Assembly: GCA_025057675.1 (NCBI GenBank)
Contig: JANWVE010000009.1
Coordinates: forward strand, 1-34,599
From: Bacteroidia bacterium
GTDB taxonomy: Bacteria > Bacteroidota > Bacteroidia > JANWVE01
Reading direction: 5' to 3'
Length of the DNA: 34,599 nt
In this document: piece by piece, positions 1 through 34,599 of the stretch
Layout: the number at the start of each line of letters is the position of its first letter
How positions within the stretch are numbered: position 1 is the stretch's first letter
The notes under the pieces: model-generated
What the model saw: the letters and a program-made list of their open reading frames with translations, nothing else
The model's database searches: none
What the model was told of the DNA's origin: nothing
Translations under genes and position numbers: made by a program

Positions 1-236
1 ATGTAATACTTACCAAAAAGATACTCAAATTTATTAGCTCGGTTAATGTCATAATAATGTTCTAAAACGGATAACCATAAACTTTTACCAAACTTACGCG
101 GACGTAAAAAAGATATGTTCCTCTCTTTACTTTGCTCTAATTTCTCTATGAACCTGGTTTTATCTACAAATACATACTCATCTCTGACTAATGTCTCAAA
201 ATTACTCACTCCATAAGGAAAAAATACTCTATTCAT
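1..236 (-). CDS. AAA-ATPase-like / PD-(D/E)XK family protein, 5' part only
   Basis: The first 78 codons of a gene that runs off the left edge. The protein begins MNRVFFPYGVSNFETLVRDE, followed by YVFVDKT and, at about residues 43-52, SFLRPRKFGKSL. This order (P-G-V-SNFE, Y-VDKT, then a RPR-FGKS P-loop) is the signature of the AAA-ATPase-like family PF09820, whose members usually carry a PD-(D/E)XK nuclease-like domain (PF08011) at the C-terminus; that part is outside the window. These genes are abundant in Bacteroidota, often multicopy, and their function is unknown. A TAnnTTTG box (241-248, minus) sits 4 nt before the ATG, supporting this start. Identification rests on the N-terminal motif only. 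Confidence 0.8.
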   Translation of the reverse strand, partial: MNRVFFPYGVSNFETLVRDEYVFVDKTRFIEKLEQSKERNISFLRPRKFGKSLWLSVLEHYYDINRANKFEYLFGKYY

Positions 237-4556: not shown

Positions 4557-5174
4557 TTTTTTGGGCGTGTCCTTGTGGGCGTTACGCTGCGCGTATGCCC
4601 ACAAGGTCGGCGTGCTACGGGCTGACGGTGCTACGCCCCACCCGCCCACCCCCTGGGTAAGGGTTTGAGTGTGGGCGAGGGGCTTCGCACCAAGCCTGAC
4701 GGCTTGCCCTTCGCATGCCTCACGCAAGTGGCAACTAAGCTAATCCCACTTATATAAAACTTAATCTTGTAAGTATCTGAAAATGAAGACTAAACAAGGT
4801 TAAAATGTATTTTGACACAGCAAATCATTGAAAATCAGCACAAAATAAAGTAAAACTTTTATATTCAAGATTAAAGGGTTAGAAGTCCATGTATTCAAGG
4901 TTTAATCTTGTACATGCTTGAAAATGAACACAAAACAAGATAAAACGGACGCAATTCAAACAAGGTAAAAAATTTTAACCTTGTAAATATTTGATAATCA
5001 ATATTGAACAAGGTAAAGCAAAGATGTGTATAAAACAAGGTAAAACATCTAAATACAGCTTGCGTGAGGCATGCGGAGGGTGCGTCAGCAGTGCGTAGCG
5101 CAGCGAAGCACCGAAGCGATAGCGCAGCCCGTAGCACGCCGACCCGAGCGCAGCGAAGGGACACGCCCAAAAAA
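4557..5174. repeat. Intergenic mosaic repeat, copy B (full)
   Basis: 618 bp. The left arm (4557-4725) is the long type with CCCACCCGCCCACCCCC. The core (4726-5061) is AT-rich with palindromic units at about 4761-4805, 4809-4855, 4901-4946 and 4974-5018. The right arm (5062-5174) is the short type. Termini are TTTTTTGGGCGTGTCC and GGACACGCCCAAAAAA. Hairpin 1 is CCTTGTGGGC (4571-4580) with GCCCACAAGG (4597-4606). Hairpin 2 is CAAGCC-TGAC-GGCTTG (4691-4706). It fills the gap between two minus-strand genes. Confidence 0.93.
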
Positions 5175-8172: not shown

Positions 8173-8801
8173 TTTTTGGGCGTGTCCTTACCCACGTCTC
8201 GCTGCGCTCGTGTGGGCAAGGTCGGCGTGCTGCGGGCTGCGCTATCGCTTCGGTGCTGCGCACTGCTGACGCACCCTCCGCATGCCTCACGCAAGCAGAA
8301 TTTTGATGTTTCACCTTATTTTTATACACGTCTTTGCTTTACCCTGTTTAACATTGATTATCAAGTACTTATGAGATTAAAAATTTTTATCTTGTTTGAA
8401 ATGCACACATTTTACCTTGTTTCGTGTTCATTTTCAAACACTTACAAGGTTAAACCTTGAATGCACAAACTTTCTGTGCCGTTTTAACGCTGAGTATTCA
8501 AGTTTTACGTTTTTTTCAATTGATTTTCAAAGATTTACAAGATTAAAGTATATTTTTACCTTGTTTAGTGTTTATTTTCAGGTACTTACAAGATAAAGCT
8601 TTGAATACATGAATTCTGCCGACCTACAAAGGTCTTGCGTGAGGCACGCGGAGGGCAAGCCGTTAGGCTTGGTGCGAAGCCCCTCGCCCACACTCTTACC
8701 CTTGCCTAGGGGGTGGGCGGGTGGGGCGCAGCACCGTTAGCCCGTAGCACGCCGACCTTGTGGGCATGAGCGCCAGCGAAACGCCCACAAGGACACGCCC
8801 A
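8173..8801. repeat. Intergenic mosaic repeat, copy C (full)
   Basis: 629 bp. The left arm (8173-8292) is the short type and the right arm (8637-8801) the long type; the AT-rich core (8293-8636) is the reverse complement of copy B's core, so the whole element is inverted relative to B. Hairpin 1 at the left is CCTTACCCAC (8186-8195) with GTGGGCAAGG (8212-8221), with one A-C mismatch; at the right it is CCTTGTGGGC/GCCCACAAGG. The right end reads ACACGCCCATA, so the terminal A-run is degraded. Confidence 0.93.
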
Positions 8802-8834
8802 TACATACAGTATTTTCTAAACAATTTTTAGTCT

Positions 8835-11691: not shown

Positions 11692-12077
11692 TTTTTTGGG
11701 CGTGTCCCTCGCTGGCGCTCGGGTCGGTGCATTCCGCACTACGCATACGCTTCGGTGCTGCACTTCGTTTCGCACAGGGCTGCGCCCTTGCTTCATGCCC
11801 CTCACGCATTTAACCCTGTATTTTGGGGTTTTTATCTTATTTTATGCATAATTTTGTTTTATCTTGTTTTTGCGTTATTTTGAGTTACCTACAAGGCTAA
11901 ACAGAGTATAGATGGTTTAAGATACTTGCAGAATGTTCTGCGTGAGGCATGCGAAGGGTGGGCGTTAGCCCAGTGCGTAGCGAAGCGCAGCACCGCAGCG
12001 ATAGCGCAGCCCGTAGCACGCCGACCTTGCCCACAACACGAGCGCAGCGAGACGTGGGCAAGGACACGCCCAAAAAA
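11692..12077. repeat. Intergenic mosaic repeat, copy D (short-core form)
   Basis: 386 bp. Both terminal repeats are intact. The left arm (11692-11807) is a divergent type ending in GCCCCTCACGC; the right arm (11940-12077) is a short-type arm carrying the long form of hairpin 1. The core is only about 130 bp and lacks the four-unit array. Hairpin 2 at the left is AGGGC-TGC-GCCCT; at the right, read inward, it is TGGGC-TAAC-GCCCA. Hairpin 1 at the right is CCTTGCCCAC/GTGGGCAAGG. It ends 32 bp from the stop of phoH. Confidence 0.9.
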
Positions 12078-17787: not shown

Positions 17788-17830
17788 TGTATATTTCTTT
17801 TGACGTATAAGTACCAAAAAACTTATTTAT

Positions 17831-18454
17831 TTTTTTGGGCGTGTCCCTCGCTGCGCTTCGGGTCGGCGTGCTACGGGCTGCGCTATTGCTTCGGTGCTTC
17901 GCTTGCGCTACGCACTGCTGACGCACCCTCCGCATGCCTCACGCAGCAGCGTTTTGATACCTTACCTTGTTTGTATATATACTTTTGCTTTACCTTGTTT
18001 AATGTTCATTATCAAGTACTTACAAGATTAAAAATTTTTACTTTGTTTTAATTACTGTCGTTTTATCTTGTTTTGTGTTCATTTTCAAGCATGTACAAGG
18101 CTAAACCTTGAATACATGAACTTTTGATAGCATTTTAACCCTCAATACACAAGTTTTACTCTGTTTTACATTGATTTTCAAGTATTTACAAGATTAAAAT
18201 ACATTTTAACTTTGTTGTATATTCATTTTCAGGTACTTACAGGGTAAAGATTTGAATAAATGAGATTAGCATACGTGCTGCGTGCGTGAGGCATGCGGAG
18301 GGCAAGCCGTTAGGCTTGGTGCGAAGCCCCCCGCCTACGCCCTTAACCCCATAACCAGGGGGTGGGCGGGTGGGGCGCAGCACCGTTAGCCCGTAGCACG
18401 CCGACCTTGCTTGCATGAGCGCAGCGAAACGCAAGCAAGGGCACGCCCAAAAAA
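17831..18454. repeat. Intergenic mosaic repeat, copy E (full)
   Basis: 624 bp, oriented like copy C. Short left arm (17831-17944), AT-rich core (17945-18283), long right arm (18284-18454). Hairpin 1 at the right is CCTTGCTTGC (18405-18414) with GCAAGCAAGG (18431-18440), a different stem sequence from copies B and C but perfectly paired. It lies between convergent genes. Confidence 0.93.
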
Positions 18455-20411: not shown

Positions 20412-21007
20412 TTTTTTGGGCGTGTCCCTTCGCTGCGCTCGGGTCGGCGTGCTACGGGCTAACGGTGCTGCGCCCCACCCGCCCACCCCCTGGTTATGGG
20501 GTTAAGGGCGTGTGCAAGGGGGCTTCGCACCGTGCTAACGCACGCCCTCCGCATGCCTCACGCAAACAGCAAGTACGCTAATCCCACTTATTCAAACTGT
20601 AACCTTGTAAGTAACTCAATATCAATGTTAAACAAGGTAAAAATATATTTTAACCTTGTAAGTTATTGAAAATCAATTGAAAATAAAGTAAAGCATTCGT
20701 ATTAAGGGTTAAAAAGTAGTGTAAAGTTCATATATTCAAGATTTAACCTTGTACATGCTTGAAAATCAATGTAAAACAAAGTAAAATAGCAATAGTTCAA
20801 ACGAGATAAAAAAATTTAACTTTGTAAGCATTTGATAATCAATCTTCAACAAGGTAAAGCAAGAACATGTATAAAAATGAGGTAGAACGTCCAAAGGCTG
20901 CTGCGTGAGGCATGCGGAGGGTGCGTCAGCAGTGCGTAGCACCGAAGCGATAGCGCAGCCCGTAGCACGCCGACCCGAAGCGCAAGCGAAGGGGCACGCC
21001 CAAAAAA
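20412..21007. repeat. Intergenic mosaic repeat, copy F (full)
   Basis: 596 bp, oriented like copy B. Left arm 20412-20563, core 20564-20902, right arm 20903-21007. The core shows the palindromic units best, at about 20601-20643, 20651-20694, 20744-20787 and 20817-20860. Hairpin 2 is CGTGC-TAAC-GCACG (20531-20544), replacing the CAAGCC/GGCTTG stem of copy B. The left arm has the short form of hairpin 1. The right end is 23 bp from the copA stop. Confidence 0.93.
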
Positions 21008-21030
21008 AGAAAAATAATTCAACTCCCTCT

Positions 21031-24092: not shown

Positions 24093-24160
24093 AACTGATT
24101 ACAAACATTTTGATTAGAGTGGGTCTATTTCTAACTCAAAGGAGGATTTATTTTAATTCT

Positions 24161-24725
24161 TTTTTTGGGCGTGTCCTTGCCCACGTCTCGCTGCGCTCAT
24201 GCAAGCAAGGTCGGCGTGCTGCGGGCTGACGGTGCTGCGCCCCACCCTCTGGGCAAGAGTGAGAGAGTGGGCGAGGGGCTTCGCACCAAGCCTGACGGCT
24301 TGCCCTCCGCATGCCTCATGCAGCAGCCTTTGGATGTTTTACCTCGTTTTTATACATACCTTTGCTTTATTTCGTTTAATGTTGATTATGAACTCCTTAC
24401 AAGGTTAAAATTTTTTACTTGTTTGAATTGCAATCACTTTATCTTGTTTAGTATTCATTTTCAATGATTTACAAAGTTAAACCTTGAATATATAGACTTT
24501 ACACGACCTTTTAACCTTGAATATACAAGTTTTACCCTGTTTTGAATTGATTTTCAAGGATTTACAAGGTAAAAGTTTGAATAAATAGACGCTGCCTACT
24601 TGCTGAGGTTCTTGCGTGAGGCATGCGGAGGGTGCGTCAGCAGTGCGTAGCGCGGCGAAGCACCGAAGCGTCAGCGTAGCCCGTAGCACGCCGACCCGAG
24701 CGCAAGCGAGGGACACGCCCAAAAA
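24161..24725. repeat. Intergenic mosaic repeat, copy G (full, rearranged)
   Basis: 565 bp between the divergent pyrK and dnaE promoters. The left arm (24161-24321) is the long type, yet the core (24322-24613) runs in the direction seen in copies C and E, where that side carries the short arm; the right arm (24614-24725) is the short type. Arm and core have been exchanged relative to the other copies. Hairpin 1 at the left is a hybrid: 5' half CCTTGCCCAC, 3' half GCAAGCAAGG, pairing only in the outer six bases. The left arm ends CCTCATGC instead of CCTCACGC. Confidence 0.92.
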
Positions 24726-28365: not shown

Positions 28366-28781
28366 TTTTCTGGGCGTGCCCCTCGCTAACGCTCGGGTCG
28401 GGCTACTCCGCACTACGCTAACGCTTCGGTGCTACGCTGCGCTTCGCACTGCCTAACGGCATGCTGCATATCCCTCACGCGGTTTAACCCTGGATTTTGA
28501 GGTTTTACCTTGTTTTTAGACACGATTTTGCTTTACCTTGTTTGATATTTATTTTCAGATACTTCCAGGGTTTAATCTTGTATAAGTGGAGTTAGTTCAC
28601 TGCAAAGTTATCTGCGTGAGGCATGCGGAGGGCGTGCATCAGCACGGTGCGAAGCCCCTCGCCCACTCTTTCACTCTTGCCCAGGGGGTGGGCGGGTGGG
28701 GCGTAGCACCGTTAGCCCGCAGCACGCCGACCTTGCACACCTGCGCGCAGCGCAACGTGGGCAAGGGCACGCCCAAAAAAA
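28366..28781. repeat. Intergenic mosaic repeat, copy H (short-core form)
   Basis: 416 bp. The left terminus is degraded (TTTTCTGGGCGTGCC). The left arm (28366-28480) is the divergent type ending ATCCCTCACGC, the core (28481-28613) is short as in copy D, and the right arm (28614-28781) is the long type. Hairpin 2 at the left is TGCC-TAAC-GGCA (28450-28461); at the right, read inward, it is CGTGC-TGAT-GCACG. Hairpin 1 at the right has one mismatch. Confidence 0.9.
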
Positions 28782-31096: not shown

Positions 31097-31159
31097 GTCG
31101 GAATTAAGTGTGCTGTATATCTGTTTTATGGGTTTAAAGATTTTTATTATTTATTTAGT

Positions 31160-31791
31160 TTTTTTGGGCGTGTCCTTGTGGGCGTTACGCTGCGCGTATG
31201 CCCACAAGGTCGGCGTGCTACGGGCTAACGGTGCTACGCCCCACCCGCCCACCCCTTGGTCAAGGGTTAAAAGTGTGGGCGAGGGGCTTCGCACCGTGCT
31301 TACGCACGCCCTCCGCATGCCTCACGCAAGAACCTTGGCAGGTCGGCAAGTGCTATTTATTCAAAGTTCTACCCTGTAAGTACCTGAAAATGAACACTAA
31401 ACAAGGTAAAAATATATTTTTACCTTGTAAATTATTCAAAATCAATTCAAAATAAAGTAAAATTTTGGAAATCAGGGTTAAAGGATTGCAAAAAGTCCAT
31501 GCGTTCAAGGTTTAACCTTGTATATGCTTGAAAATGAATGTAAAACAAGGTAAAATAACCCCACTTGAAATAAGATAAAAAATTTTAACCTTGTAGTAAA
31601 CAGTTGATAACCCGTATTAAACAAGGTAAAGCTAATGTATGTCTAAAAATGAGGTAAAACGTGGAAATACAGTTTGCGTGAGGGATACGGAGCATGCCGT
31701 CAGGCAGTGCGAAGCACAGCGTAGCACCGAAGCGAACGCGTAGTGCGCAGTAGCCCGACCCGAAGCGCAGCGAAGGGACACGCCCAAAAAA
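31160..31791. repeat. Intergenic mosaic repeat, copy I (full)
   Basis: 632 bp, core oriented as in copy B. The left long arm is 31160-31327; hairpin 1 there is CCTTGTGGGC/GCCCACAAGG and hairpin 2 is CGTGC-TTAC-GCACG (31295-31308). The core is 31328-31675, with the 15-nt inverted repeat CAAGGTTTAACCTTG at 31506-31520. The right arm (31676-31791) is the divergent type beginning GCGTGAGGGAT, with hairpin 2 reading TGCC-TGAC-GGCA inward. Confidence 0.93.
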
Positions 31792-31873
31792 ATAAAATTA
31801 TTTTTTAGACTTGATATAGTAAAAATAAAATAGACGCCTCTTGTATAACAGTATCCATCACAAAGATTTTTGC

Positions 31874-34176: not shown

Positions 34177-34254
34177 GTCAGCAAAACTTTTTAAGCCTAT
34201 TTTTTTACACAAAGTAAAATATCCGATTTATGTAAGTTATTTATTTGATATGAT

Positions 34255-34599
34255 TTTTTTGGGCGTGTCCTTGTGGGCGTTTCGCTGATGCTCATGCCCA
34301 CAAGGTCGGCGTGCTGCGGGCTGACGGTGCTGCGCCCCACCCCCTGGGCAAGGGTAAAAGCGTAGGCGAGGGGCTTCGCACCGTGCTATCGCACGCCCTC
34401 CGCATGCCTCACGCAAGAACTTTGCAGATTGGCAGAGTCTATTTATTGAAATCTTTATCTTGTAAGTACTTGAAAATGAACATCAAACAAAGTAAAAATA
34501 CATTTTAACCTTGTAAATTATTGAAAATCAATACTAAATAAGATAAAACTTGAATGTTCAGGGTTAAAGGATTGTGATAAGTCGATGTATTCAAGGTTT
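34255..34599. repeat. Intergenic mosaic repeat, copy J (cut by window end)
   Basis: Long left arm (34255-34414) followed by at least 185 bp of AT-rich core in the copy B orientation. Hairpin 1 is CCTTGTGGGC/GCCCACAAGG with a loop different from copies B and I. Hairpin 2 is CGTGC-TATC-GCACG (34382-34395). The right arm lies beyond the window. Confidence 0.92.

Follow-up and report, generated by a model that had tools for sequence, protein, structure and literature searches.

In enterobacteria, the BIMEs (bacterial interspersed mosaic elements) occupy intergenic DNA as patchworks of palindromic units with linker motifs. REPINs, which are connected with RAYT genes, are extragenic pairs of inverted palindromic units that occur in hundreds of copies, fold into hairpins and are found beside single units (Bertels and Rainey, 2011, PMC3116915). 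Among the Bacteroidota, Flavo-1 (RF01705; Weinberg et al., 2010, PMC2864571) has been entered in Rfam as an RNA without known function. To these described systems we compare a stretch of 34,599 nucleotides (hereafter the window), which forms one contig of an assembly, G000, from an uncultured member of the phylum Bacteroidota that comprises 2.89 Mb in 336 contigs. The window contains ten copies (A to J) of a repeated element, every one of which is intergenic. Our preferred reading, to which we assign a probability of about three in four, is that these copies are members of a single interspersed, non-coding family of inverted-unit elements that has expanded hugely, and whose modules have independent histories because they have been shuffled by recombination between copies.

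Each element consists of two inverted, structured, GC-rich arms that flank an AT-rich core of ~340 bp, and both of its ends carry terminal inverted repeats (T-run GGGCGTG and CACGCCC A-run). From the outside inwards, each end is composed of the T-run, GGGCGTG, an end hairpin, GGTCGGCGTGCTRCGGGCT, at least one side hairpin and the inner motif CCCTCCGCATGCCTCACGC. The end hairpin occurs in two sizes, a long form of ~36 bp and a short form of ~18 bp, and a C-rich CCCACCCGCCCACC hairpin is present in long arms and absent from short arms. The core contains several imperfect units with the consensus form TTTTACCTTGTTTAATGTTCATTTTCAAGTACTTACAAGGTTAAA. This organisation is represented by copy B (4557–5174, with arms at 4563–4725 on the minus strand and 5062–5168 on the plus strand), copy C (8173–8805; arms 8178–8292, minus, and 8637–8800, plus), copy E (17830–18454; arms 17837–17944, minus, and 18284–18448, plus) and copy I (31159–31792; arms 31166–31327, minus, and 31676–31785, plus). 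The outermost copies are incomplete: copy A (3–496) retains the right half of the element, with an arm at 389–496, together with a core remnant, and copy J (34254–34599; arm 34261–34414, minus) is truncated by the contig end. A few percent of the ends genome-wide share a longer sequence outside the T-run, AAGTCTAAAAAATAATTTTACTTTTTTGGGCG, which suggests that the original element was longer than the present one.

When folded as single strands, the elements are far more stable than shuffled controls (z about -13.5), although this score alone is no evidence of function since most of the energy stems from the inverted arms. The local hairpins are maintained by covariation. Among the long end-hairpins, 169 of 173 have at most one mismatch, compared with 67 expected when the halves are shuffled. 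The small inner hairpin likewise takes several self-complementary forms that are unrelated to each other (CAAGCC/GGCTTG, CGTGC/GCACG, TGCC/GGCA and TGGGC/GCCCA) around a near-constant T-N-A-C loop. Selection on a long arm-to-arm stem was considered and rejected, since an A/G site common to both arms is unmatched between them (p = 0.16) and the inner 19-mers match no more than expected; covariation is thus limited to the local hairpins.

The family differs greatly in abundance between G000 and two further species of the same genus, G001 and G002; in a scan for other relatives, none exceeded about 54% identity in DnaE. The exact end motif, GGGCGTGNCC-hairpin-GGTCGG, occurs 1,500 times in G000 (744 + 756, corresponding to ~750 elements), against 731 occurrences in G002 and 46 in G001; a search with the reversed pattern of this motif gave no match. 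The density in the window, ~20 ends per 34.6 kb, is in line with the genome-wide end count. Element statistics are based on 812 kb of G000, from contigs partly picked for element matches, in which 168 complete elements with paired inverted ends were parsed, mostly of 550–650 bp and together accounting for 11.7% of that sequence. The load of the repeat family in this genome is about 12–15%, which for a dispersed repeat is rare among bacterial genomes. In 593 kb of G002, 53 elements were parsed, with size classes of ~100, 300–370 and 550–650 bp. The minimal form in G002, of ~105 bp (for example L121:5090-5194), comprises two end hairpins and a short junction, and is apparently a deletion product that fuses two different arm types. 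Many short inverted pairs are found in G002, and the sampled loci of G001 hold single units only. The three species thus look like stages, with 46 end motifs as single units, 731 in a mixed state and 1,500 as pairs, and a plausible order of events would lead from single units, as in G001, to inverted pairs in G000 and G002 and then to the great expansion in G000.

An earlier note on the window had described its copies as mosaics, and most of what it reported is borne out when the sequence is re-read. In copies B, F, I and J, the long arm adjoins the core side reading ATCCCACTTAT or CTATTTATT, and in copies C and E the same relation holds in reverse. Copy G (24160–24725, from the T-run and GGGCGTG to CACGCCC and the A-run) has its long arm on the opposite side of the core, as is also evident from the core-oriented table: the long arm (24167–24321, minus strand) and the short arm (24614–24720, plus strand) enclose an AT-rich core (24322–24613, plus strand) that is inverted relative to the arms when compared with most copies. 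Hairpin 1 of copy G (24175–24210, plus strand; CCTTGCCCACGTCTCGCTGCGCTCATGCAAGCAAGG) is chimeric: a 5′ half of the CCTTGCCCAC/GTGGGCAAGG type is joined to a 3′ half of the CCTTGCTTGC/GCAAGCAAGG type, and consequently 3 of the 10 outer pairs fail. The nearest relative of copy G, L001:13290-13895 on contig C88 of G000, is ~97–100% identical through the arms and the core. The flanks of the two copies differ just outside the T-run and the A-run, so the whole element has recently been copied or converted between loci. The members of this close pair differ at the apex of hairpin 1, with nearly identical sequence to either side, and copy G is devoid of 51 bp (after position 24569) that lie between two TAAAAGTTTG direct repeats in its relative. 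This comparison provides local support for exchange inside a hairpin, as the earlier note had proposed. Such exchange is rare, with two clear cases in 173. The second half-and-half end hairpin, L111:9585, has a 3′ half as in copy G (CCTTGTGAGC...GCAAGCAAGG).

The proposal that copies D and H each join a divergent arm to a shortened core stands for copy H and falls for copy D. In copy H (28372–28774; arms 28372–28480, minus, and 28614–28774, plus), the left part belongs to the short-core subfamily and the long right arm is 95% identical to long-core copies. Copy D (11692–12077; arms 11698–11807, minus, and 11940–12071, plus) is an ordinary member of the short-core subfamily, with full-length identities of 92%, 91% and 89% to other short copies, one of which is in a sister species. 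In copy F (20412–21008; arms 20418–20563, minus, and 20903–21001, plus), a short end-hairpin is joined to a long arm, a combination seen at 40–43 ends among 284 arms; the reverse combination occurs at 23, and the type of end hairpin is thus partly unlinked from that of the arm.

The 142 full-length copies were oriented by their cores and classed by their short (S) and long (L) arms. S-L is the most frequent arrangement (95 copies), followed by L-S (24), S-S (17) and L-L (6). Independence of the two sides would predict about 8.7 L-S and 21 L-L copies; the departure from these values indicates a tendency for an element to retain one long and one short arm (Fisher p = 4e-11). One inversion of the core between the inverted arms turns S-L into exactly L-S, and S-S and L-L copies can be derived by replacement of one arm. 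The excess of L-S copies therefore speaks for core inversion, or for a rule that gives each element a single long arm, rather than for unrestricted swapping of arms. Core-reversed copies are not a clade, with a mutual core distance of 0.249 compared with 0.244 for random copies (p = 0.72), which implies either that several inversions took place or that later exchange wiped out the trace of a single one.

Some elements are longer, with the core interrupted by a gene. Among open reading frames (ORFs) that have an element end no more than 700 bp away on each side, nuclease genes account for 3 of the 6 situated inside an element in G000, compared with 0 of the 89 other ORFs (p = 1.4e-4), and for 2 of 2 in G002, compared with 0 of 16 other ORFs (p = 0.007). 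Two families of nuclease are involved. The first is Rpn-like, with a conserved D...ExQK pattern and, for one of four proteins, a match to TIGR01784 (E 1.2e-6) that is under the curated cut-off. The second is an AAA-ATPase with a PD-(D/E)XK domain (PF09820 and PF08011), to which the gene start in copy A (3–236, minus strand; cut by the contig end) belongs and of which a further example lies inside an element at L106:2331-4052. Additional copies of the nuclease genes, many of them cut by contig ends, mostly show the same orientation of element ends, with few exceptions. The same gene families stand alone in G001, outside elements, and are therefore not tied to element ends in general; for this reason, their link with the elements may reflect opportunistic insertion. 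No different inverted repeat was seen to flank the nuclease genes of G001. Other contents also occur between element ends. At L016:7594-9084 (contig C293 of G000), an outward-framing pair of ends encloses a CRISPR array of nine in-register repeats of 47 bp, GTTGTAAATACCGAGGAATCTTGGTATTTTTGTACAGCATTTACAAC, eight of them near-identical, with a spacing of 76–78 bp. An ORF with a KTSC domain (Pfam match) lies between plus and minus ends at L105:8657-8872, as do ORFs that resemble, by eye, PhoU and an rRNA methyltransferase, at L108:6101-6775 and L162:5490-6245; these loci are possibly elements without their inner ends, or captured genes.

That pairs of units frame such varied contents, namely nothing, a short core, a long core, a nuclease gene or a CRISPR array, and that unpaired units are present in G001 and elsewhere in the class, is what would be expected if the modules had come together through successive insertions, or if single units had been captured independently on either side of a core, with little later exchange. 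We regard this explanation as improbable, however, as it accounts neither for the exchange of blocks inside the core (see below), nor for the local change in the hairpin of copy G, nor for the joining of short end-hairpins to long arms. More improbable still is that the mosaics are artefacts produced when a short-read assembler joined copies at long identical stretches of the arms. The fragmentation of the assembly would favour such errors, since many of its 336 contigs end in elements (76 of 116 unpaired ends sit at locus edges), and exact stretches of at least 70 bp in common with another copy are found in copy G and in 94 further full-length copies. Exact stretches of at least 100 bp are common to copy G and its nearest relative, which makes a local assembly chimera possible at this copy; the genome-wide conclusion on recombination is independent of it. 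Against a general artefact, the proportions of the classes are unchanged in the 47 copies that have no exact repeat of at least 70 bp (31 S-L, 10 L-S, 5 S-S and 1 L-L; p = 6e-6), blocks of the core that are only tens of bp apart recombine in spite of a core identity of only 76%, and both arrangements of the core are also present in G002, which is a separate assembly.

Each arm represents one copy of a structured unit that is widespread in the Bacteroidota. In a class-wide search, 94 of 395 genomes had at least one match to the end motif, with very few matches each in most of them, and in other families of the phylum the motif often lies within a single unit, GCGTGAGGGAT...AGCCCGACC-hairpin-GGCACGCCC, that is closed by a GCGTG/CACGC stem. 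A covariance model, R1, built from 11 units of other families only, detects 18 of 18 arms in the window (E 7e-8 to 0.12) and nothing else there; in 550 kb of control sequence from other Bacteroidota, it gave no match at E values up to 1. Each arm of copy G thus corresponds to one such unit (19.8 bits, E 0.065, for the long arm and 34.1 bits, E 7.9e-5, for the short arm). Several single units of other families match RF01705 (up to 73.7 bits, E 8e-15). No match to RF01705 above the gathering score was found in the window or in G000, G001 or G002, and outer ends as in the window's family occur at only 3 of 30 sampled Flavo-1 loci; the unit family therefore overlaps with Flavo-1 without being identical to it. 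The idea that RF01705 is always a part of the unit was rejected on the same 3 of 30 loci. Flavo-1 itself is multi-copy in many Bacteroidota genomes, with at most all 29 scored candidates in one genome, as would be expected of a dispersed repeat rather than of a single RNA gene.

These matches to RF01705, together with the covariation that maintains the hairpins, are what could be put forward for viewing the elements as structured RNA genes or regulators of the Flavo-1 kind that are kept for their function, with the variants as functional types. We give little credence to this view. In the transcriptome of Flavobacterium psychrophilum, Flavo-1 matches lie in both sense and antisense directions and many are outside transcripts (PMC9723704), which fits a DNA repeat, and numbers of end motifs that range from 46 to 1,500 within one genus are unexpected for a functional RNA gene. 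Our findings suggest that the unit family overlapping the Flavo-1 "RNA" behaves, in one lineage or more, as a DNA repeat that moves or is copied.

Evidence for recombination comes from a comparison of modules among 86 copies of the common short-core-long type. The congruence of the left-arm, core and right-arm trees, on which the earlier note had proposed that its claim should be judged, was assessed as a correlation of distance matrices, with the agreement between alternate columns of one module providing the within-module value. Distances are consistent within the left arm (r = 0.88), the right arm (0.57) and the two 3′ quarters of the core (0.61 and 0.48). The two 5′ quarters are nearly without signal (0.04 and 0.09), and linkage disequilibrium (LD) in that half of the core is uninformative for this reason. 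Between modules, the trees are clearly incongruent: r is 0.14 for the left arm and the right arm, 0.04 for the left arm and core quarter 3, -0.12 for core quarter 3 and the right arm and 0.02 for core quarter 4 and the right arm; the adjacent core quarters 3 and 4 agree (r = 0.48). Within the core, r2 falls from 0.067 at 1–10 bp to 0.034 at 10–30 bp, 0.020 at 30–60 bp and 0.017 beyond 60 bp, compared with a level of 0.015 for permuted, unlinked sites. Since low LD would also be compatible with a star tree on which mutations recur, we examined multi-site haplotypes in four blocks, comprising a divergent left arm, an indel variant of the core (8 copies), a variant of the 3′ core (12 copies) and the type of inner hairpin in the right arm. 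The blocks combine freely, with 12 of the 16 combinations present. The sole association, between the left arm and the 3′ end of the core (p = 0.005), is not significant after correction for ~45 tests.

Modules that are internally consistent yet mutually incongruent, with LD gone within 60 bp, support recombination between copies, and the earlier claim of frequent recombination or gene conversion is thereby upheld genome-wide as regards recombination; the data do not tell apart reciprocal recombination, gene conversion and template switching. Radiation as a star tree from one or a few masters, with no recombination and with repeated mutation and compensatory hairpin change, would be in keeping with the mean identity of the cores (76%), the scant tree signal of their 5′ halves and the covarying stems (expected if pairing is selected), but is very unlikely given that LD decays with distance and is not flat, that multi-site haplotypes common by descent combine freely and that core orientation cannot be flipped by point mutation. 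Preferential exchange between neighbours was considered and rejected, since copies within a contig are no closer in similarity. As the arms are more conserved than the cores, identical arm tracts beside dissimilar cores may partly reflect constraint.

If the modules have been shuffled by recombination between copies, as we favour, the core would be flipped by a crossover between the two homologous arms, which are inverted, and arms, hairpins and blocks of the core would be swapped by template switching or by gene conversion over short tracts. The family itself may spread as a miniature non-autonomous element in the manner of a REPIN, and breaks, copying or both may be driven by the PD-(D/E)XK nucleases that some elements encode. 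In Escherichia coli, Rpn proteins raise RecA-independent recombination, for which primer-template switching has been proposed (Kingston et al., 2017, PMC5350276), and by analogy it is reasonable to consider the Rpn-like proteins as candidates for promoting exchange between copies. A bolder and rather doubtful extension, which we offer tentatively, is that the repeats reproduce and recombine within one genome almost as a sexual population, with passenger PD-(D/E)XK nucleases cutting the elements, perhaps at extruded hairpins, and template-switch repair moving hairpins, arms and cores and flipping the latter. The nuclease genes represent a testable candidate driver. Since hundreds of paralogous copies are near linkage equilibrium, a single genome suffices to measure the length of tracts, the rate of inversion and the selection acting on hairpins.

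With respect to mobility, no convincing excess of identical flanking k-mers, as expected for a target-site duplication, was found at any offset around the 168 and 53 elements, and the Y1/RAYT transposase domain (PF01797) is absent from G000, G001 and G002, in a search for which the control genomes were positive; both results count against the proposed mode of spread. No similar sequence was found in phage and plasmid records, and no relevant paper was found in a literature search for the end motif. We also considered the elements as a cause of breaks in gene order. Gene neighbourhoods at element boundaries are conserved to G002 in 2 of 69 tests, both of which concern a single boundary approached from either side, and to G001 in 0 of 49, compared with 4 of 20 and 0 of 10, respectively, for wide element-free gaps. 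Because element-free gaps are mostly broken and G001, with few elements, is equally scrambled, no causal claim is made. At one conserved gene boundary, G000 has an element with a degenerate left end (L178:1400-2090) and G002 only a possible decayed remnant of a core (L128:14700-15000); at another (L185/L164), a 105-bp element is present in G002 and none in G000.

Among the described systems, MITEs share terminal inverted repeats with this family and differ in their target-site duplication, which was not found here; as to an autonomous partner with matching ends, the nuclease genes are located within elements but in G001 also stand alone. The nucleases encoded inside elements resemble Rpn nucleases (PMC5350276) in their weak match to TIGR01784 and their D...ExQK pattern, although Rpn genes are not described as cargo of inverted-repeat elements in the literature examined. 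Flavo-1 RNA is alike in that units of other families match it at the central hairpin and the flanking AGCGGAAA/AGCCCGACC, and in that the full-unit model R1 also detects the arms in the window, and unlike in that the window's genus is without a match to RF01705. With REPINs, the family has in common its inverted, extragenic pairs of palindromic units in hundreds of copies, the single units beside the pairs and the folding into hairpins, whereas its units are larger (100–165 bp, with several hairpins), a core of 340 bp lies between them and the three genomes have no Y1/RAYT gene. As in BIMEs, palindromic units are observed in mosaic combination in intergenic space; the sequence architecture differs, being set apart from REP sequences by description only, and here the mosaic state is measurable as near linkage equilibrium at a load of about 12–15% of the genome. 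By analogy, the family resembles a REPIN or BIME population in the way it works, but it is without a RAYT transposase and a target-site duplication and differs in its sequence family; it stands out by its size, by how extensively it is shuffled and by overlapping with both the Flavo-1 family and nuclease genes.
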